A stretch of 11,178 nt of DNA from positions 21,572-32,749 of the forward strand of contig DYHY01000013.1 in NCBI GenBank assembly GCA_020723935.1. Direction: 5' to 3'. This DNA comes from Candidatus Micrarchaeum sp. (GTDB lineage Archaea; SpSt-1190; DYHY01). Shown in pieces: positions 732 to 11,178 of this stretch; the first letter of the stretch is position 1, and each line of letters starts with the position of its first letter. A program made the translations under genes and the position numbers. The notes beneath the pieces are model-generated. The model was not told where the DNA came from, ran no database searches, and saw only the letters and a list, made by a program, of their open reading frames with translations.

Positions 732-1427
732 CTAGCGGCCGAATCGCCTGTTGCGCCTGCCGTAGTCGGAGACTAGGCGCGCAAGGTCCTTCTTCTCGAA
801 GGCGGGCCAGTTCTTCTGCGAGAAGCCAAACTCTGCGTAGCTTGAGCCCCAGAGGAGGAAGCCGGAAAGGCGCCTCTCGCCGCTCGTGCGGATTATGAGG
901 TCAGGCTGGGGCAGGCCGCCGAGGTAGAGCGCGGACTCGATGGCCTTCTCCGTCCTCGCGCCGGCGCGCACGGCGTCCGCTATCTCCGCCTGCCCGTCAT
1001 ATGCGAGGGCGATGTTGAGGAAGAACCTGTCGTAGCCGGAGGTGGCCCTCTCGGCCCGGGAGATCTCCATGCGTATGGACTCGGGCATCATGCGCGTCCT
1101 CCCGATGAACCTCAAGCGGATGTGGTTCCTGTGGACCGACTCGTCGGCCGCTATCTCTCTCACGTTCTTCTCTATTATCTCCATGAGCTTTGCGACCTCG
1201 CGCCTGGGCCTGGAGAAGTTCTTCGCGGAGAAGCCGTAGATTGTCAGGACGGGTATGCCGAAATCCTCGAAGACCCAGTTGATGAAGGCCTTCATCTTCT
1301 TGACGCCCGCCAGGTGCCCGTACCAGGCCGGGAGGCCGCGCTCCCGCGCGAAGCGCCTGTTCCCGTCGGGTATGAGTGCAAGGTGCCTTATTCCGCCGCT
1401 CTTGTCGCGCTTGTCGGTGGGAGCCAT
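732..1427 (-). CDS. uppS: Cis-prenyltransferase (polyprenyl/undecaprenyl diphosphate synthase family)
   Basis: 231 residues, a normal length for the family. The enzyme adds isopentenyl units in cis to an allylic diphosphate, making the long polyprenyl diphosphate that archaea use as lipid carrier for N-glycans and other surface sugars. Motifs are in the expected order: IPDGNRRFA with the catalytic Asp at 21; GLPAWYGHLAG (31-41); YGFSAKNFSRP (64-74); LNIALAYDG (137-145); and IIRTSGERRLSGFLLW (178-193), with Arg180, Arg186 and Ser188 for diphosphate binding and Glu199 downstream. One oddity is Lys69, where relatives usually have Glu (FS-x-E-N-W/F). The start at 1427 is preceded directly by AAGGA, too close for a normal Shine-Dalgarno. 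It lies 31 bases after the hef stop on the same strand, so it is probably co-transcribed with hef. Confidence 0.93.
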   Translation of the reverse strand: MAPTDKRDKSGGIRHLALIPDGNRRFARERGLPAWYGHLAGVKKMKAFINWVFEDFGIPVLTIYGFSAKNFSRPRREVAKLMEIIEKNVREIAADESVHRNHIRLRFIGRTRMMPESIRMEISRAERATSGYDRFFLNIALAYDGQAEIADAVRAGARTEKAIESALYLGGLPQPDLIIRTSGERRLSGFLLWGSSYAEFGFSQKNWPAFEKKDLARLVSDYGRRNRRFGR

Positions 1428-1458
1428 TCCTTGGCGGGGGGCCCGCTGGGCCGAGTTT

Positions 1459-3693
1459 TTAGCGTTTTTCCCCGGCGGGTTCCGCCGGCTCGTCTTCCCT
1501 GCCCGAGGCGACCTTCCTGATCTTGGCCGCGGTCACCTTTCCTATCCCCCCGACCTTCCGGAGCTCCTCCGGGCCCGCGCAGAAGACGGCCTGGGGGCTC
1601 CCGAAATGCGAGAGGAGCCTGCGCGCGAGGGTCAGGTTCACGTCCGGGAGCGCCGCTACCACCCCCTCCTGCTGTTCGGGAAGGGTCTTCCCGCGCAGCT
1701 TCCCCTTCACCTGCGGGGGCCGCTTGGGGTCCGTCTCCCGCCTGAGGATGACAGATATCAGCGCGGCGCCCTCCTCCTTGTCGCGCACGAAGATGACAGG
1801 TATGCCGAAGTCGAGGGAAATGGAAGCGAGGGCGCCCCTTATCGCGTTCGGGTGGATGTTCCTCTTGGCGTATATCTTGGAGAGGGACTCGGCCTCTACT
1901 ATCATCAGAGGCCGATCGAAGGTGTCGGAGAGCTGGGCCGCCTGGTCAAAGAGCCTCCCATCCAGGAGCGATGCGACGAAATCCTCCCCAGTCTTCCTCT
2001 CTATCGCGACGCTGTCCGAGATGACGATATCTGCGACGGGGAGGGGCTTCATCTCGACGGAGACGTTGGAGAGGGACTTGAGGAGCGACAGGACGCTGGA
2101 GCCAGCCTCCCTCGTGTCGACGAGTATCCTCGGGCGCGGCTCATCCTCCCCCTCCTCCTCGTGCGCGGAGGGCGAGATGAACGAGGAGAGGGAGCGGTTC
2201 GCCGACTCCTCCTCGCGCTTGGCCAGCTTCACGGAGCGCATGATGTTCCTCATCGCCTTCTCGTTCCTGTGGGAGATCCAGCGGTACGCTTCGTCCTTGG
2301 AGCCCTTGGCGACGAGGATCGCCACCCTCCCCTCCCCGGCCTTGCGTCCCGTCCGGCCGCGCCGCTGTATGTGCCGTATCGCGCTAGGCACCGGCTCGTA
2401 GAATACGATCGTGTCGACCGCCGGGATGTCTATCCCCTCCTCGCCGACTGACGTGCTGACTAGGGCGGAGAAGTCCCCCCTGCGGAACGCTTCTATCGTC
2501 TCCTTCTGCTTCTTCTGCGTGAACCCCTCCTTCTGGCCCAGGAACTCGCGCGCCGACACTCCGGACGATTCCAGGGCGGCGGCAAGCTTCCTCGCCTGGG
2601 CGCGGTAGTGGGCGAAGACTATCACCGGCGAGCTGCCGGCTCCCTTCACTATCTCGATGAGGCGCGCGAGCTTCGGGTGGTCGACGCCCTTGGAATGGAG
2701 GTGGCGCGTTATCGCGAGCGCCTGGCGGAAGTCCTCCAGCTGCATTATCTGGCGCGAGGAGGCTGAGCCGTCCTTCCTCAGCCTCTCGAGGAACTCCACA
2801 AGGGAGAAGACCCCCTGCGTCTCGAGCAGCTCTATGGCGTGGAGTATCTTCATCGCCCCTGCGGTCGCGGCGATTGACGCGAAGTCGCGAAGGGACGCCG
2901 CCCTGCCCTTCGCGGACAGGATGTCGCGCTTGGTGACGAACGCGACGTCCGCCGACTCTATGAGGCCGCTCGCCTTCAGGCCGCGCAGGTACGCGCGCAG
3001 GACCGACAGGAGGAGCTCCTTCACACGCAGGAACTCGGCGGGCAGCGGGACCTCGACGAACTGCGTGTCCACCTTCGACACGTAGGGGAGAACGTCCCCG
3101 TCCGACTCGGACCTGCTCTCGACGTTCGATATGAAAAGGTTCCTGCATATCTCCCCCACCTTCTCGGAAGTGTGGCCGGGAGAGGCGGTGAGCGCGAGTA
3201 TCAGCGGGTTCTTGGCCCTGTTCATGTATTCGCGGGCGAGGAACACGTAGGAATCGTTCTTCACGCAGTGGTGCGCCTCGTCGAAGACCGCAAGGACGGT
3301 GTCCGAGAGGTCGAAGTTCCCCGTTATCACGTCGTTTCTGAGGACGGGAGCGGTGCAGCAGATCATCCGCGCCCCGCAGTAGGAGGCCGCCCGCTCGGAG
3401 GGCGGTATCTCCCCAGTGACGACCGCGACGGGGACGTCGAGGAACGCGGAAAGCGTCTTCGCGTGCTGCTCGGCGAGGGGCTTGGTCGGGCAGATGACAA
3501 CTGCTGGGCCCGGAAGGCCCCTCAGCCTCTCGGCCGCGACGAGGGCGGCGATGGCGGTCTTCCCCAAGGCCGTCGGCAGGACGACGAGGGTGTTCCCCTT
3601 CTTGAGGGCGGATGCCGCTATCACCTCCTGGTAGAGCCTGCGCTCTATCGCGTTCTCCCTTACCAGCGGGTTGTGGGAGAAATATTCGGCCAT
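1459..3693 (-). CDS. hef: Hef-type fork-structure helicase/nuclease (SF2 helicase + ERCC4 nuclease + HhH)
   Basis: 744 residues, full length for archaeal Hef, the XPF/FANCM relative that unwinds and cuts stalled replication forks and branched DNA. Helicase domain: Walker A PTALGKT (40-46, with Ala where PTGLGKT is usual), DEAH box VFDEAHH (136-142), TASPG (169-173), a helical insert at about 220-340, and motif VI QRRGRTGR (443-450). ERCC4 nuclease: VDTRE (525-529) and IERKTGED (564-571), which matches ERK-x3-D. The usual GD before ERK is AD here (554-555), keeping the acidic residue. Tandem helix-hairpin-helix motifs lie at about 681-699 and 714-728. The reading frame continues 284 codons upstream, but that part is antisense to the ABC operon. 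I chose the start at 3693 because homology begins there and a TATA box lies about 30 bases upstream, giving a leaderless message. Confidence 0.95.
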   Translation of the reverse strand: MAEYFSHNPLVRENAIERRLYQEVIAASALKKGNTLVVLPTALGKTAIAALVAAERLRGLPGPAVVICPTKPLAEQHAKTLSAFLDVPVAVVTGEIPPSERAASYCGARMICCTAPVLRNDVITGNFDLSDTVLAVFDEAHHCVKNDSYVFLAREYMNRAKNPLILALTASPGHTSEKVGEICRNLFISNVESRSESDGDVLPYVSKVDTQFVEVPLPAEFLRVKELLLSVLRAYLRGLKASGLIESADVAFVTKRDILSAKGRAASLRDFASIAATAGAMKILHAIELLETQGVFSLVEFLERLRKDGSASSRQIMQLEDFRQALAITRHLHSKGVDHPKLARLIEIVKGAGSSPVIVFAHYRAQARKLAAALESSGVSAREFLGQKEGFTQKKQKETIEAFRRGDFSALVSTSVGEEGIDIPAVDTIVFYEPVPSAIRHIQRRGRTGRKAGEGRVAILVAKGSKDEAYRWISHRNEKAMRNIMRSVKLAKREEESANRSLSSFISPSAHEEEGEDEPRPRILVDTREAGSSVLSLLKSLSNVSVEMKPLPVADIVISDSVAIERKTGEDFVASLLDGRLFDQAAQLSDTFDRPLMIVEAESLSKIYAKRNIHPNAIRGALASISLDFGIPVIFVRDKEEGAALISVILRRETDPKRPPQVKGKLRGKTLPEQQEGVVAALPDVNLTLARRLLSHFGSPQAVFCAGPEELRKVGGIGKVTAAKIRKVASGREDEPAEPAGEKR

Positions 3694-3718
3694 CCTTCCC
3701 GGCGCCCCCCCTTCGCGG

Positions 3719-3728
3719 CCTTTTATGC
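3719..3728 (-). promoter_or_regulatory. TATA box of hef
   Basis: Read on the minus strand the sequence is GCATAAAAGG. Its A/T core lies 28-33 bases upstream of the hef ATG at 3693. Archaeal transcription starts about 25 bases downstream of the TATA centre, which places the first transcribed base at or very near the ATG. This supports both the start codon and leaderless translation. The surroundings are strongly GC-rich, so the A/T island stands out. Confidence 0.6.
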
Positions 3729-3775
3729 CCTTTCCCGCGGGCCTTTCCGGTATCCTGCCGTGCGCCCATGCAAAG

Positions 3776-3786
3776 CCATTTAAGCC
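3776..3786 (+). promoter_or_regulatory. Probable TATA box for the padR-ABC operon
   Basis: CCATTTAAGCC is the first A/T-rich island reading rightward in the 174-base gap between hef and padR. A start about 25 bases downstream would fall near 3806-3811, at the ATG of 3811 that is followed immediately by a stop. Two further A/T islands (GAATATTATG at 3804 and GAATATAC at 3820) could also serve, so the exact promoter is uncertain. Confidence 0.4.
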
Positions 3787-3790
3787 CTGA

Positions 3791-3826
3791 TATTCCCGGA
3801 TGCGAATATTATGGAGTGAGAATATA
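3791..3826. promoter_or_regulatory. Possible PadR operator: repeated GAATAT / TATTC elements
   Basis: TATTC at 3791-3795 and GAATA at 3804-3808 form a 5-base inverted repeat with an 8-base spacer. GAATAT recurs at 3820-3825, 16 bases after the first copy, about one and a half helical turns. PadR proteins bind short inverted repeats with spacers of about 8 bases, classically ATGT-N8-ACAT, and usually repress their own promoter. The position directly upstream of padR fits autoregulation. The bases differ from the classical site, so this is an inference from symmetry and location. Confidence 0.35.
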
Positions 3827-3867
3827 CGGCCAAGAAGTCGTCGGCGGCCTTCGACCTGAAGGAGCAC

Positions 3868-4209
3868 ATGAGGCGCGGCATCCTGCGCGTCTACGTCCTG
3901 TTCTCGCTCTCCAAGAAGAGGATGCACGGCTACGAGCTGCTTAAGCACTTCCGCACGAGGATGGCGGAGTGCGGCGGGAGGGCGACGAGCACGGGCGAGC
4001 TCTACTCCTTCCTCGCCCACATGGAGAAGGTGGGCCAGGTGAGGTCCGAGTGGACCGGGGCGGGGAGGCGGAGGAGGGTCTTCAGCCTCACCCCCTCGGG
4101 CAGGGCGACGGTCGCCGAGACGAAGAACAACTTCAGAGCGGTCCTGGGGCTCTTCAGGCAGATAGTCCCCGAGGTCTTCGGGAAGCCCGGCGGGAAGGAG
4201 GGCTTTTGA
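3868..4209 (+). CDS. PadR-family winged-helix transcriptional regulator
   Basis: 113 residues, the small PadR class. The hallmark HGYEL is at 20-24, within 'SKKRMHGYELLKHF'. The recognition-helix and wing segment STGELYSFLAHMEK-GQVRSEW runs from about 41 to 62, followed by GRRRRVFSLTPSGRATVAE and a short C-terminal helix for dimer contact. PadR proteins are usually repressors released by small lipophilic ligands, and are often encoded beside the drug or lipid exporter they control. The ABC ATPase gene starts 6 bases after this stop. The start at 3868 has GAAGGAG before it with only a 3-base spacer. The frame stays open upstream back to TGA 3817, encoding a plausible N-terminal extension (AKKSSAAFDLKEH), but no ATG, GTG or TTG lies there. 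The true N-terminus is therefore less certain than the family assignment. Confidence 0.88.
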   Translation: MRRGILRVYVLFSLSKKRMHGYELLKHFRTRMAECGGRATSTGELYSFLAHMEKVGQVRSEWTGAGRRRRVFSLTPSGRATVAETKNNFRAVLGLFRQIVPEVFGKPGGKEGF

Positions 4210-4215
4210 GCGGCA

Positions 4216-5220
4216 ATGGCCAAAGCGTCCAAGACGGCGATATCGGTGAAGGGCCTTGTGAAGAGGTTCGGGGACCTTTCGGCGGTCAAGGGGATAACGT
4301 TCTCGGTGAAGGAGGGGGAGATCTTCGGGTTCCTGGGCCCGAACGGTGCGGGGAAGAGCATGACGATAAACATGCTGACCACCCTCCTCGTCCCCACCGG
4401 AGGGGACGCGACGGTCGCGGGAGTGAGCGTCGTGGGCTCGCCCGAGACTGTGCGTGAGAGGATCTGCCTCATCTCCCAGGAGGGGAGCGTCGACGGGGAC
4501 CTCACGGCCGAGGAGAACCTCGTCTTCTACGGCAGGCTCTACCACGTCCCCGAGAAGGAGCTCTCGCGCAGGGTCGACAGGGCCCTCGAGTTCGTCAACC
4601 TCTCAGACAGGAGGGCGACGAGGGTGAAGTTTTACTCAGGGGGGATGCGGCGGCGCCTGGAGATGGCCAAAGTCTTCATATCCGACCCCAAGGTCATCTT
4701 CCTAGACGAGCCCACGATCGGCCTCGACCCCCAGTCCAGGGACATGGTTTGGAAGAAGATCTTCGAGATAAACAGGTCCAAGGGCATCACGATATTCGTG
4801 ACGACCCACTACATGCAGGAGGCAGAGGGCCTCTGCAACCGCATCGCGATAATGGACCACGGCAAGATAATAGCGATGGACACCCCGGCGGCCCTGCGGG
4901 AGGGAATAGGCATCGGGGAGATAGTTGAGGTGGAGGTCCGCCACGACGGGGCATTCCACCGGGCCCTCGCCAAGGCGGGCTTCGAGGTCGAGCCCCTGTC
5001 CAGGAACAAGTACAGGATAACCGCGAAGGGGTCCGGCGGCGTGGAGAGGGTCGTCGGGATCGCGAGGAAGTCGGGGACGAAGATAATCAACATGCTCGCG
5101 AGGCGCCCGACGATGGAGGACGTCTTCATGCACTACACCGGAAGGGAGGTGCGCGACGGGACGGAGGCGGGAAACCTCCTCACCAAGGTCCTCGCGCGCA
5201 ACGCCCGGGGGGGAGGCTGA
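4216..5220 (+). CDS. ABC transporter ATP-binding protein, DrrA/CcmA-like (ABC-2 exporter)
   Basis: 334 residues. It is the nucleotide-binding subunit that powers the permease encoded next. Walker A GPNGAGKS is at 41-48, the Q-loop Gln at 88, signature YSGGM at 140-144, Walker B IFLDEP at 161-166, the D-loop just after it, and the switch His at 198 in TTHYMQEAE. The C-terminal 90 or so residues (about 235-334) match the extra domain of DrrA-type exporters, ending in the usual 'RPTMEDVFMHYTG'. The family drives export of drugs, lipids, polysaccharides or other hydrophobic cargo; nothing here identifies the substrate. It lies 6 bases after padR and 1-4 bases before the permease start, so the three genes are certainly one operon. 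Confidence 0.94.
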   Translation: MAKASKTAISVKGLVKRFGDLSAVKGITFSVKEGEIFGFLGPNGAGKSMTINMLTTLLVPTGGDATVAGVSVVGSPETVRERICLISQEGSVDGDLTAEENLVFYGRLYHVPEKELSRRVDRALEFVNLSDRRATRVKFYSGGMRRRLEMAKVFISDPKVIFLDEPTIGLDPQSRDMVWKKIFEINRSKGITIFVTTHYMQEAEGLCNRIAIMDHGKIIAMDTPAALREGIGIGEIVEVEVRHDGAFHRALAKAGFEVEPLSRNKYRITAKGSGGVERVVGIARKSGTKIINMLARRPTMEDVFMHYTGREVRDGTEAGNLLTKVLARNARGGG

Positions 5221-5221
5221 A

Positions 5222-6310
5222 GTGATGGGGCTTTTCGGGGACATATTCACCGTATGGGCCAAGGACATGCGGGTCTGGAGCAAGAAGCCCTTCGTCGTCC
5301 TCTCGAGGGCGCTCATCTTCCCCCTCGTCTACCTGGTGATCTTCGCGAACTCCTTCGGCGACTCCTTCTACGACCTCCCGATAGCGGTCGTCGACCTCAA
5401 CGCCGGGCCGGCCTCCCTCTCGTTCGTCTCGGCGATGACGACGGGAAACACCGTGCGCGTGGTGGCGCAGCCCAGCTACGAGAAGGCCCTCGAGCTCTTC
5501 AAGGCGAGGAAGGTCTACGCGATCGTGATAATACCCAAGGGTGCGGCCGAGGTGAGCCTCCTCGCCGACCAGTCCTCGCCCCAGACGGCGGGGGCGATAA
5601 TCTCCGTCGTGAACGCCGCCGCGGCGAGGCTGTCCTCGGCCCCGGGAAGCGCAGGTGCCCCGCCCATTATCGTCAGGACGGACGTCCACTACGGGAGGGG
5701 TGCCAGCTACATGGACTTCCTCACGCCCGGCGTCATAATACAGACAATAGCGATGGGCGCCCTGTTCTCCGGGGGCGTGAGCCTCCTCTTCGAGAAGCAG
5801 CTGGGAGTCTTCAACCTCCTCCTCGTCGCCCCGATAGACAAAATGGCGATAATCATGGGCAAGATCCTCTCGGCAGTCACCCAGTCGATGGCAAGCGGCC
5901 TCATCGCCCTAGTGATAGCCTTCCTCCTGGGGGCCAAGATCAAGGCCGGGGTCGTCGGGATCCTCTTCCTGATCCTCCTGATGTTCCTCGTCTCCTTCTG
6001 CTTCATAGGCCTGGGGATAGCGATGACGGCCTACATCAGCGACTTCCAGGCATGGATGATGACGATGCAGCTAATCATAATGCCCTTTTGGATAGTGAGC
6101 GGGACGTTCTTTCCGATAGAGTCGATGGCATGGTGGCTGCGGCCTCTTGCCCTGGTGAGCCCGCTCACGTACGCGACGAGCGCCGCGAGGAACATCATGA
6201 TCCGCGGCTTCACCTTCGCGTCGGTTTCAAGCGATTTCGCTGTGCTCGCCGGCATGGCGGCATTCATGTTCCTGTTCGGGATAAAGTCGTTCAGGAGGAC
6301 GGTTGAATAA
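5222..6310 (+). CDS. ABC-2 family transporter permease
   Basis: 362 residues from GTG 5222, or 361 from ATG 5225; the two starts are adjacent. About six membrane segments are visible: roughly 29-45, 167-190, 212-238, 243-266, 278-298 and 336-354. A large extracytoplasmic region of about 120 residues lies between the first and second, as in the YhgE/DrrB/ABC2_membrane_3 group. The segment EKQLGVFNLLLVAPI (191-205) is the conserved cytoplasmic coupling region after helix 2, and the late 'SGTFFPIESM' is also typical. With the preceding ATPase it should form a dimeric exporter. The stop TAA 6308-6310 sits 4 bases before the next ATG. Substrate unknown. Confidence 0.9.
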   Translation: MMGLFGDIFTVWAKDMRVWSKKPFVVLSRALIFPLVYLVIFANSFGDSFYDLPIAVVDLNAGPASLSFVSAMTTGNTVRVVAQPSYEKALELFKARKVYAIVIIPKGAAEVSLLADQSSPQTAGAIISVVNAAAARLSSAPGSAGAPPIIVRTDVHYGRGASYMDFLTPGVIIQTIAMGALFSGGVSLLFEKQLGVFNLLLVAPIDKMAIIMGKILSAVTQSMASGLIALVIAFLLGAKIKAGVVGILFLILLMFLVSFCFIGLGIAMTAYISDFQAWMMTMQLIIMPFWIVSGTFFPIESMAWWLRPLALVSPLTYATSAARNIMIRGFTFASVSSDFAVLAGMAAFMFLFGIKSFRRTVE

Positions 6311-6314
6311 GAAT

Positions 6315-6620
6315 ATGGCAACGGTGGCAGCAGGCAGGGCAAGGGGATTTTTCGTGGGGGCGTTGGTCGCGGCGGCCGTCGCGATAACGGGGATAGTCTT
6401 CCTCTTCATCTACGCGATACTCGGCGCGCTCTTCGGGGGCGTCGCCGGATGGTTCGTGCAGGTGGCTCCGGTGATAGGACCGGCGGTCAGGACGGGATTC
6501 GCGCAGCTGGGCCTGAAGGTCGACAACCTCGCGGCTGTCGGCGCGGCCCTGGGCTTCGTCAGCGGCTTCTTCAAGCACAATGGGAACAGCGGCGGGGCGG
6601 CCGGCGCGAGGGAGTGGTAG
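6315..6620 (+). CDS. Small glycine/alanine-rich membrane protein of unknown function
   Basis: 101 residues from ATG 6315. An in-frame TTG at 6303 would add four residues and overlap the permease stop, but the ATG is the simpler choice. Residues 12-50 are almost entirely hydrophobic and glycine-rich (GFFVGALVAAAVAITGIVFLFIY, then AILGALFGGVAGWFVQ), enough for a helical hairpin. A third weakly hydrophobic stretch lies at about 72-86, and the end is short and hydrophilic. The Gly pattern (GALFGGVAG) suggests tight helix packing. I do not recognise the family. Its place between the exporter permease and two secreted COG1361-type proteins suggests an accessory membrane subunit of the same system. 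Confidence 0.72.
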   Translation: MATVAAGRARGFFVGALVAAAVAITGIVFLFIYAILGALFGGVAGWFVQVAPVIGPAVRTGFAQLGLKVDNLAAVGAALGFVSGFFKHNGNSGGAAGAREW

Positions 6621-6640: not shown

Positions 6641-7842
6641 ATGGCGGCACGTGGACGGGTTGCGGTGTTCGCGGCGATTGTCCTCTTTGCGGTGTTCGCG
6701 GCGATTGTGCCGTCGGCGGCTTCGCCCAGATAGAGAACACGCGGGTCGGGACGGTGAGGCCGGGCTCCACCTTCGCGGTGAGCTTCGACGTGCACAACAT
6801 AATGAACGACTACGTGAAGTACGTCTACGTCAAGGCCCCGGTCTCGACGTCATTCCAGCCCGTCGGATACGACACCTGGGCTTCCCCAGGCCAGATAGCG
6901 AGGGACGGTAGGGAGCGCGCAACGTTCATATTCAAGGCGGACGACAACCTGGTCGCGGGGGTCTATTCCCTCCCCTTCCTCCTGACGAGCGAATCCAAGA
7001 CCCTCAGCGGGGCGAGCCTCTCAGGGGGCCTTGTGAGCTCCCTCCAGACGCTCACCACAACCGAATACGTCTACGTGAAGGTGGACGGCGCGCCTTCGCT
7101 CGTGGTCAGCCAGAAATCATCCGTCCCCGCGCTCGTGGAGGCGGGGAAGGAGGCGACCGTGACATTCGACGTCTTCAACAACGGGACGGACACGGCCCGG
7201 GAGATAGCAATCGACGTCGGAAGCCCCGACAAGGTGAGCGTCGGCTCCGCAAGCAGGCACATCTACCTCGGGGAGCTCGCGCCCAAGGCGAGGACGGCGT
7301 TCTCCGTCGGCTTCCTCGCTGACGGGGCCCCGGGCAGGACCGGCTTCGTCCTTCCGGTCGGGGTCTCCTGGAACGGGGGCTCCGCCTCGCAGGACCAGGG
7401 CATCACCCTTCGGACCGCGACGAGGCTCGAGATTGTGCAGATACGGGGCGCGATCCTCCGCGGGGTGAACGACCAGAAGCTCTCCGTCGTCGTGAGGAAC
7501 GCGGGGAACAGTCCCGCCGAGGGGATACGCGCGACGATCCTGACGAGCTACCCCCTGACCCCGTCCGGCAGGGATTCGTTCATCCAGAGCCTCGCGCCGG
7601 GCGAGGAGAAGGCGCTTCTCTTCAGCCTGGATGCCGACTCGCAGGGCGCGCTGCAGGAATACCCCTTGCAGTTCGCGGTCACGTACGACGATCATTCCAG
7701 GAGCGAGAGTGATGTCCTGGACGCGAGCGTCCCGCTGCAGAAGGGGGCCGGCGGCGCCTACTACTGGCTCGCCGTTCCCGTCGTCCTCTTCGCGGCGCTT
7801 TTCGCTTTCGGGAAGCTGAAAAGGAAGCCCAAGAAGGAATAA
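6641..7842 (+). CDS. Secreted, C-terminally anchored COG1361-type (S-layer-like) protein, with a frameshift in the signal peptide
   Basis: A textbook signal peptide begins at ATG 6641 (MAARGRVAVFAAIVLF...VPSAA) but runs into TAG 6731-6733. The mature protein continues in a different frame from 6721 as FAQIENTRVGTVRPG. One missing base at 6719-6721 would join them, giving a signal-peptidase site AFA|Q and a protein of about 400 residues. Without that base the downstream frame reads back to an ATG at 6580 inside the previous gene, but with a polar N-terminus that is plainly not a signal. The mature part has about three beta-sandwich repeats with COG1361-type motifs (TVTFDVFNNGTDTAREI, SVVVRNAGNSPAEGI). 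It ends in a membrane helix, YYWLAVPVVLFAALFAFG, and a basic tail, KLKRKPKKE. It starts 20 bases after the small membrane protein. Likely a surface or exporter-associated scaffold; the ligand is unknown. Confidence 0.8.
6661..6715 (+). repeat. 27-base in-frame tandem duplication within the signal peptide
   Basis: Two copies of a 27-base unit lie at 6662-6688 and 6689-6715. A stretch of 21 bases (6661-6681 and 6688-6708) is identical between them. The period is nine codons, so the hydrophobic core reads AVFAAIVLF then AVFAAIVPS. The duplication lengthens the hydrophobic core without changing frame. The frameshift of this gene lies a few bases after the second copy. Confidence 0.85.
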
Positions 7843-7864
7843 AGGGGCCCAAACGAGCTTGAAA

Positions 7865-7871
7865 AGGTGAT
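7865..7871 (+). promoter_or_regulatory. Shine-Dalgarno AGGTGAT pointing to ATG 7881
   Basis: The archaeal 16S tail complements GGAGGTGATC, and AGGTGAT matches seven bases of it. It lies 9 bases upstream of ATG 7881 and overlaps the GTG at 7867, so that GTG is an unlikely start. This is the clearest Shine-Dalgarno sequence in the window, and it decides the start of the following gene. Confidence 0.6.
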
Positions 7872-7880
7872 TGGAAAACG

Positions 7881-8890
7881 ATGCAAAAAAACGAATCAGA
7901 AAAGATTTCTAGGTCCTGTGGCTTTCGCCCTCCTGATGGTGGCGGCGTCGCTCGCGCTCCTCTTCCTCCTCTCGCCATCCTTCCCGGCGAGCGGCCCGAG
8001 TAGCGGAGCAGACGTCATCTTCGTGACGAACAAGATAGACCCGGTCGCGGCAAGCCCCAGCAGGGACCTCAACTTCAACGTGGTCGCCCAGAACTGGGGC
8101 CTTACCAGCGTCCAGAACCTCACCATGGCGATAGTCCTCCCCGACGACCTCGTCTTGAAGGATTCGTCTATGGAAAGGCAGTCCGTGGGCCCCCTGTGCT
8201 CGTTCTGCAACGTCGAGACCAAGTACTTGATGAAGGTCGGCGAGTGGGTGATGTCGGGCGACTACACGATCAAGGTGGTGGCCTCCTGGGAGACCGGCTC
8301 GCGCGACAGGGAGTTCACCGTCTCCGTCAGTCAGGGGCCAGCCGCGCCTCGCGATAACGAGCGTCAGGTACGACCCTGAGGAGATAGAGCCTAGCAAGAC
8401 GACCGCAGTTTCCATGATCGTGAAGAACATCGGCAGCGCCCTCGCGATAACGCTCCCGACGCTGACCGGCGACACCAAGAGCAGGTTCGCGGTGCTGGGC
8501 TCCGGGACCGAGATACCCGTCGTGACCCTAGGCGTGGGGGAGAGCAAGACCATCTCGTTCGTCCTCGCGGCCGACGACAACGTCGAGGTCGGGGTGTACA
8601 ACTTCCCCGTCGCGCTCTCGTTCTACAACCAGTCGATCGCGAGCGGGATAGGGATCAAGGTCATCTCCAAGGCCCTCCTGACGCTGCCCAAGGTCCAGAC
8701 GGACCCCGTGACGATACTCCCGGACAAGAGCTTCCTCTGTCCGCGACGGTCGAGAACGCCGGGAAGAGCGAGGCTAAGAGCGTGACGGTGGAATACATTG
8801 AGGAGGGCGACCGGCTCTCGGGCCAGAAGGGCGCATACCTCGGCACGATCAAGTCAGGCGACAAGGACGTCGCGCTCTTCGAGATGACGT
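7881..8890 (+). pseudogene. Second secreted COG1361-type protein, multiply frameshifted and truncated at its 3' end
   Basis: The protein is recoverable from three reading segments. From ATG 7881 the start reads MQKTNQKRFLGPVAFALLM... if the A run at 7885-7891 has six rather than seven bases; with seven, only the GTG at 7867 is in frame. A hydrophobic segment (GPVAFALLMVAASLALLFLL) follows. A first beta-domain carries a CSFC cysteine pair and ends near 8335. An extra base near 8334-8341 shifts to the next frame, which continues PRLAITSVRYDPEEIEPSKTT... A missing base near 8731-8739 shifts back: FLCPRRS should read FLLSATVENAGKSEAKS. Several COG1361-type repeats are present (MIVKNIGSALA, ATVENAGKSEA). 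Homology stops at about 8890 (DVALFEMTY), where antisense HD-gene sequence begins, so the C-terminal domains and anchor are missing. The open frame runs on meaninglessly to 9036. It would be the last gene of the exporter operon, 38 bases after its neighbour. Confidence 0.72.
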
Positions 8891-9102
8891 ACGCGGGCCC
8901 GGTCTATCCCCTTGAATGCGGGCGCGAGGCCCGCCACCATCGCGGCGACGCGGAAGGAATGGTCCGCGACGCTCTCGGGGGCGGCTATCCCTTCGCGCAC
9001 CCAATCGGCGCGCCTCACCATCTTGAGCCTCCCTAGAAGCTGGAAGAGGAGGATGTCGTCGTCCTGGGAGGCACCGGACGGGACGGGTTTCATCGCAGCC
9101 AT
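8854..9102 (-). pseudogene. HD-domain phosphohydrolase (YfbR/COG1896-like), N-terminal fragment
   Basis: The segment ILLFQLLGRLKMVRRADWV...APESVADHSFRVAAMV (17-56) matches the N-terminus of the COG1896-type HD hydrolases, which include 5'-deoxynucleotidases. The first metal-binding His is His48. The protein should continue for about 100 more residues with the HD dyad and later metal ligands. Here it ends after AFKGIDRARV; the remaining residues to the stop at 8854 are read antisense to the COG1361-type gene and are not real. The fragment lacks the catalytic dyad and cannot be active as drawn. The ATG at 9102 (or Met4) follows the methyltransferase stop by 3 bases, so the two genes form an operon. 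Confidence 0.75.
8880..8900. other. Breakpoint: head-on junction of two truncated genes
   Basis: From the left, COG1361-type coding sequence on the plus strand is convincing up to about 8890. From the right, HD-domain coding sequence on the minus strand is convincing down to about 8890-8895. Neither gene has its own end and no intergenic DNA lies between them. The local bases include short palindromes (ACGTACG, GGGCCC). The exact breakpoint cannot be fixed from one sequence. Confidence 0.6.
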
Positions 9103-9105
9103 CCC

Positions 9106-9869
9106 TTATCTCTGCCCGTTCCTGCCGCCGCGGACAGCCTTCTTCTTCCTGAGGACGAGTATCTCCTTGCCCTCCGAATACCCCAGACGCGTCACTATCT
9201 CGAGGCCCGTCGCGGGGAGGGGCGCCGGCACCTGAGACTCCTCCTTGAATTCGGTAAGCCTCCTCGCTTGGCCGGGTGTGACGGTCCGCCCGTATTCCGC
9301 CGACAGGGTTTTTGCCACGGCCCTCGCGTGGCGCGCGTGGGGCGTGCCCCTGAAGATGAGGCTCGCGTCCGAGACGCGCTGCCTGAGGCGGGAGAAGGCC
9401 GGCCGGTCCATCGGCTCCGTTATCGCGAAATACATGCCGCCCTCCGGAAGCGCGGCGGAGACGGCGCGGAAGAGGTCCTGGACGTCGGGCAGGTGGTGAA
9501 GGAACGAGCAGCTCACGACAAGGTCGCAGGGGGGGATCCCCCCGCGCGAGGTCGAGGACCAGGAATCTCGCGCGCCCGTCCCTGACCGCCTTCCTCGCCG
9601 TCGCTATCGCGTCCGGCGATATGTCGATGGAGACCAGCTTCGAGCTGCTGGGGAGCTCCCCGAGGAGGATCTTGGTGAAATTGCCGATGCCTGCCCGAGC
9701 TCGACGACGCGCTTCGGATTCCTGCCGGAGACCAGCGCCGCGCACACACGCGCGCCTCGTCTCCGTAGAGCGCCTCGTCGGAATAGGCGAGGTCGGTCCT
9801 GTCGTGCCAGAGCTCGTTCGCACGCGCGACGATCGTCTTCCCCTCCGCCGTGCCGGCCGCCCTTCCCAT
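9106..9869 (-). pseudogene. Class I SAM-dependent methyltransferase, broken by three small indels
   Basis: Joining three reading segments gives about 253 residues: MGRAAGTAEGKTIVARANEL... to ...LVLRKKKAVRGGRNGQR. Motif I is VELG-x-GIGN (about 55-63), the acidic end of strand 2 is LVSIDIS (78-84), and motif IV and after is CDLVVSCSFLHHLPDV (114-129), followed by ALPEGGMYFAITEP (139-152). These define a Rossmann-fold methyltransferase of the Methyltransf_11/25 type; the substrate is unknown. Disruptions: an extra CA pair in CACACA at 9743-9748, one missing base at about 9692-9694 just before GIGN, and an extra base in the G7 run at 9529-9535. The last 136 residues are intact from 9516 to the stop at 9106. 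The ATG at 9869 has a TATA box about 35 bases upstream. It leads into the HD gene 3 bases later. Confidence 0.8.
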
Positions 9870-9987: not shown

Positions 9988-10680
9988 ATGGGAATACTTG
10001 AATGGCTCGGGTTGAGGCGCCCCCCGGCGGCGCCATCCCCCCCTGCCGCATCCCAGCCCGTCCAGGCCGTGGGACCGGGGCCTCAGCAGGCGCCCGGCCC
10101 AAAGCCGGCTTCCCCTTTCAATTTCCAGAAGCCTTCTGACTGGAAGCTCCCGCGCGAGGACGTGAGATACATCTCCGATTCCGAGAAGCTCAACCTCGTG
10201 CTCCAGGGGGTCTATTCGGTCTACGAGGAGCTGCGGCCCATGGCCCAGGACGGGAGCAGGGTATCGCGCCTCCAGCTACTCCTCGAGAACCTCACGCCCG
10301 AGGAGCGGGCGAACGCGAAGAAGACGCTCGAAGACCTGGACATCGACAACGCGATACTTCGGTTCCTCGAATTCCCAAAGTCGATCGAGGAGATAGCCGC
10401 CGAGATAAGGAAGAGCTACGGATACGCCGCGGCCCGCCTGCGCTACCTGCGCGGGATGGGGAAGGTGGCGCGCCTGCGGGACCCGCAGAGCAACAAGTAC
10501 AGGTACGCCCGCATGAGGGAGGGCGCGGCGCGCCAGATGGACCTCTCGAGCGTCCAGCAGACCCTTGCCCAGCAGCAGGAAGAAAAGGCTGAAGATTCCC
10601 GAGAAGAGGCGGCGGCCGAGACTGAAGAGAACCGGACAAGTGGGGAAGCCGGGGAAAAGTCTCCGGAGTCGCCCCAATAG
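9988..10680 (+). CDS. Unrecognised protein with a winged-helix DNA-binding domain and disordered termini
   Basis: 230 residues from ATG 9988, chosen because it follows a TATA box at 9951; the frame stays open back to 9913. Residues 1-10 (MGILEWLGLR) may form a short amphipathic helix. Residues 11-50 are Pro/Ala/Gln-rich and probably disordered. A helical region (about 55-118: EKLNLVLQGVYSVYEEL, TPEERANAKKTLEDL) precedes a winged-helix fold at about 120-178: NAILRFLEFPKSIEEIAAEI, YGYAAARLRYLRGMGKVARL, then a beta wing ending KYRYARM. The C-terminal 50 residues are rich in Glu, Gln and Ser and acidic. There is no enzymatic motif. It may be a transcription or chromatin-associated factor, but I cannot name a family. 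It converges on radA, 56 bases away. Confidence 0.75.
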   Translation: MGILEWLGLRRPPAAPSPPAASQPVQAVGPGPQQAPGPKPASPFNFQKPSDWKLPREDVRYISDSEKLNLVLQGVYSVYEELRPMAQDGSRVSRLQLLLENLTPEERANAKKTLEDLDIDNAILRFLEFPKSIEEIAAEIRKSYGYAAARLRYLRGMGKVARLRDPQSNKYRYARMREGAARQMDLSSVQQTLAQQQEEKAEDSREEAAAETEENRTSGEAGEKSPESPQ

Positions 10681-10685
10681 TCTAG

Positions 10686-10704
10686 TCCGCCCTTCTCAGG
10701 CGGA
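10686..10704. terminator. Hairpin between the convergent winged-helix and radA genes
   Basis: TCCGCC (10686-10691) and GGCGGA (10699-10704) pair perfectly around a 7-base loop, beginning 5 bases after the stop at 10680. No T-run follows on either strand, and archaeal terminators mainly need T-runs, so termination here is a guess from position and symmetry. Confidence 0.25.
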
Positions 10705-10736
10705 ATCGTCGATCCTTGCCGTCGCCGGGCGGGGCC

Positions 10737-11178
10737 TTATTCCTCTACCGCGTCCCCCAGGCCCGTTTCGGTCACCTGGAAGACGGCTTCCCCCTCAGGG
10801 AGGTCGGGAGAGTCGATGAGCTTCGCCACGCGCTTGGTCCCCTTGCTCTTCCTGAGGAAGAGGCGGTACGTCGCCGCGTGGGCGAGGACGTTCCCGCCTA
10901 TCGCCTCTATGGCCGGGCCCCAGAAGGCGTCGGGCTTTGCCGAGACCTGGTTCGTGATGTAGACGACGAGGTTGTAGACGTCGGCCAGGCGCTGCAGGCG
11001 GTGGAGGTGGCGGTTGAGCTTCTGCTGGCGGTCGGCGAGGGTCCCGCGGCCCATGTATTCGGCTCGGAAGTGGCTCGTTATCGAGTCGACGACTATGAGC
11101 CTGATTTTCCTGCCGTTGTTGATGAGGGTCTCTATCTCGTCGACGAGGAGCATCTGGTGGTTGCTGTTGTAGGCGCGG
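10737..11178 (-). CDS. radA: RadA DNA strand-exchange recombinase, C-terminal part (start lies beyond the window)
   Basis: 146 residues are visible, running off the right edge; full RadA is about 320-350. RadA forms ATP-dependent filaments on single-stranded DNA and carries out homologous pairing. Visible motifs are [14 protein letters not shown] at the edge, Walker [16 protein letters not shown], the L1 loop region [20 protein letters not shown], then [25 protein letters not shown] covering the L2 loop. The conserved end follows: THR/TYR-type '[12 protein letters not shown]', '[20 protein letters not shown]'. The Walker A segment and the N-terminal HhH domain lie outside. The L2 stretch [10 protein letters not shown] differs from the commoner GDPTxPIGGH. 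The reading frame is clean, unlike that of the nearby methyltransferase. Confidence 0.95.

Follow-up and report, generated by a model that had tools for sequence, protein, structure and literature searches.

Frame breaks and a truncating junction in a gene block of an archaeal draft genome are most likely artefacts of assembly or sequencing

Indel errors in draft assemblies are length errors, often homopolymeric, that split single genes, conserved ones among them (e.g., PMC12007338; Homopolish, PMC8011154). The frame breaks described here resemble them, but are clustered and not merely linked to runs. The GeneTack survey of ab initio frame transitions in prokaryotes (PMC3711429) drew on the same kind of codon-frame signal that we use. 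That survey covered complete genomes and sought conserved recoding, whereas here we saw no recoding motif. Recent prokaryotic pseudogenes, like the genes examined here, show indels together with partial gene deletion, but in this assembly the same type of break also reaches a translation-essential gene elsewhere.

The host assembly is an archaeal draft genome of 1.14 Mb in 47 contigs, estimated to be 91% complete. The stretch that we analyzed (the window) consists of the terminal 11,178 bases of contig C9 (21572-32749 of 32,749 bases). A run of 10 N lies directly 5′ of its start, and radA (window 10737-11178) is cut by the contig end, which is also the window end. No second copy of the region was found in the assembly. 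When named genomes were scanned with radA, the best match had 66% identity, with no relative above this value. The comparison genomes comprised one from the same family and a few from the same class, and the CARDB and methyltransferase genes were not found at the search threshold in the one same-family genome.

An earlier note on this DNA had placed seven changes of one or two bases within 6641-9869. Using translation and Pfam, we identified four genes in this stretch, two on the plus strand and two on the minus strand, and examined them with a codon-frame HMM whose training set was 0.50 Mb from this genome and which was blind to the list of indels. For six of the seven changes there was support from the coding frame, the protein family or a signal peptide; the one in an A7 run was not established. 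The flanks at 732-6620 and 9988-11178, described as free of such changes, contained no same-strand HMM frame break.

The first gene (6641-7842, plus strand) encodes a CARDB-domain surface protein (CARDB, 1.5e-9). Its signal-peptide-like start (ATG 6641) and the mature CARDB protein, which carries a C-terminal membrane anchor, are in different frames. The frame of the mature protein has no start codon between 6580 and 6753. These features place the frame change at ~6711-6721, in agreement with the missing base proposed at 6719-6721. Within the signal-peptide region, window 6660-6713 consists of two adjoining, near-identical 27-base copies, in frame.

The second gene (7867-8912, plus strand) encodes a CARDB/NPCBM-like surface protein. 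The HMM broke the frame at 8329-8331 and at 8738, with likelihood gains of 24 and 30 nats, matching the extra base proposed at ~8334-8341 and the missing base at ~8731-8739; the first of these frame changes lies within ~8328-8341. An extra A in the A7 run (7885-7891) need not be invoked, since GTG 7867 provides a start from which the downstream frame is already open. A GGTGAT motif before ATG 7880 gives the indel weak support. We rejected this Shine-Dalgarno argument because the genome hardly uses such motifs (22/348 genes versus 12/348 control positions). The gene appears to lack its 3′ end and, judged against its neighbor, a C-terminal membrane anchor.

On the minus strand, a class I SAM-dependent methyltransferase gene (9106-9869) is divided into four frame pieces, with three breaks in one 0.76-kb gene (~9743-9748, 9692 and 9529-9546). 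The HMM placed a break at 9544-9546, near the extra base proposed in the G7 run at 9529-9535, and a further break across 9692-9748, the interval of the proposed missing base (~9692-9694) and extra CA (9743-9748). The Methyltransf_12 profile joins the pieces: one piece scored 14 bits, and the pieces joined with X reached 53 bits, covering 1-97 of the 98 profile positions. Intact relatives align over the breaks, with weak E-values.

The largest lesion, missed in the earlier note, is a tail-to-tail junction at ~8890-8912. Here the second surface-type gene collides with a convergent HD_3-family hydrolase gene (5′ part at 8893-9102, minus strand), and neither has a 3′ end. The HMM registered the junction as a strand switch at 8899-8903. 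Of the 165 positions in the HD_3 profile, the HD gene covers only 2-50, and its open frame of 83 aa compares with 173-219 aa in most relatives; ~110 C-terminal codons are gone, including the HD motif, just before which the alignment ends. Both open frames overrun each other unterminated, as do few of the 86 convergent pairs that we sampled. A search of the rest of the assembly for the missing 3′ half of the HD gene did not find it; an HD_3 gene on contig C20 was considered and rejected, as it is a separate paralogue. The junction may be a misjoin or a local deletion, which sequence alone does not tell apart. Further unterminated convergent pairs, possibly misjoins, lie at L025:5941-5987, L017:2488-2490 and L144:9900-9902.

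To place the window in the context of the assembly, we counted HMM breaks in sampled stretches totalling 0.50 Mb. Of 61 strong breaks, five were N gaps, leaving 56 (0.11/kb), compared with eight when the same method was applied to 0.52 Mb from five other archaeal genomes. This rate is ~7-fold that of the controls, whose G+C is lower or whose codon usage is less informative, so that the sensitivity of the HMM differs between the two sets. The HMM also gives false positives, such as a break at 15.9 kb on C36 that is likely an ordinary gene boundary. Runs of at least five accompanied 27% of breaks versus 5% in controls (0/1000 controls reached this value). Breaks favor G/C homopolymers; the majority nonetheless lie outside runs. 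Even without the window, breaks were clustered (12 gaps of <1 kb between neighbors versus 4.9 expected; 0/1000). The sampled 0.50 Mb showed no enrichment of breaks close to contig ends or N gaps, so that such proximity was not supported as their cause; this counts against the error reading.

The earlier note described a 3-kb island of indels, which does not fit an assembly with 56 breaks in 0.50 Mb and several clusters. With four HMM-detected breaks in 3.2 kb, the patch is tied for the densest in the sample. As ~20% of uniform simulations at the assembly's own rate reached at least four breaks in 3.2 kb somewhere, it ranks among the densest patches but is not a unique island. Another dense patch lies in a P-type cation ATPase gene in several frame pieces (L144:4686-7490, contig C34), and more clusters occur at L134:12200-17700 (C24) and L140:6180-9570 (C30). 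On C24 there are also an odd lysine-run C terminus (near 14986) and repeats of an LFIPL motif (16335-16478). The 1,439-base contig C7 (L023) is all N and probably masked.

Cells that lack histidyl-tRNA synthetase are not viable. On contig C21, hisS is split over two frames (profile positions 1-319, then 321-405) with no N gap, and both halves are recognized as HisRS domains. We found no other convincing full hisS copy in the assembly. Since cells need this enzyme and the only convincing gene for it is broken, the assembly contains some indel error. The uvrB gene on C36 is likewise split between frames. Breaks are not confined to non-essential genes, but hisS is the only clearly essential case found, and most of the broken genes seen are non-essential, which weighs against error. 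Two other candidates for indel-broken essential genes, ileS (C13, L028:6057-6066) and the aIF2 gamma gene (C17, L032:1602-1611), were rejected because each is interrupted by a 10-N scaffold gap. As the two sides of each gap are in different frames, gene callers will split both genes.

We consider it probable that the 6641-9869 stretch is an artefact of assembly or sequencing. Length errors of one base or a dinucleotide would account for the disrupted frames of three genes. At ~8890-8912 a misjoin or a collapsed deletion would have fused two convergent genes and removed both 3′ ends. The two surface proteins, the HD-domain hydrolase and the SAM methyltransferase would presumably be intact in the organism, and the patch would be one of several error-rich patches in the assembly. 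We infer that the window's patch arose as error, like the hisS break, with thin or ambiguous read support as the presumed cause. The earlier note had offered either error or very recent decay, and error is the better supported, by the ~7-fold rate, the G/C homopolymers and hisS. Two of its other grounds fared less well: the island is not isolated, and sequence described as undamaged between breaks has codon-bias scores inside the genome's normal range for the pieces, but includes two genes truncated at the junction.

The lack of damage is in any case a weak argument for error. We saw no stop codons between the breaks. This test has low power: at this G+C content only 1.4-2.6% of substitutions create a stop, and even with 10 substitutions for every indel a complete lack of stops is expected in ~30% of cases. 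We therefore rejected the absence of stops as evidence against decay, with which it is compatible, and real decay of the block has to be allowed for. A local deletion would then have taken both convergent 3′ ends, and indels would have inactivated the neighbors before many substitutions accumulated. The sharp borders with intact flanks fit such a history, as does a single junction that truncates two genes; natural slippage, too, gives rise to indels in runs and to homopolymer bias. We nevertheless regard recent decay as unlikely, given three breaks in a 0.76-kb methyltransferase gene and more in two unrelated neighbors while codon bias is still normal, the same type of break in hisS and the assembly-wide excess of breaks. 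The two kinds of lesion could also differ in origin, the junction being a real local deletion and the small length changes assembly error. The junction is unlike the indels in kind, and unterminated convergent pairs are uncommon in our sample; however, draft assemblies produce misjoins too and nothing separates the origins of the two lesions, making such a mixture quite improbable. That slippage or recoding bridges the frame changes during expression, leaving the genes functional, is harder still to credit. G/C runs at many breaks and the involvement of an essential gene, hisS, would suit bridging, but most breaks lie outside runs, the affected genes are unrelated and share no motif at the breaks, and bridging cannot rescue truncated genes.

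The patch is thus most likely an artefact and not a real feature. Claims of gene loss, pseudogene counts or split genes that are based on this draft genome are unreliable, and a codon-frame check flags it without reads. We think it very improbable that the organism truly carries frameshifted genes on this scale, hisS included, and restores the frame in transcription or translation. Were the breaks real, it would be remarkable for an archaeon to survive with a frame-broken hisS.
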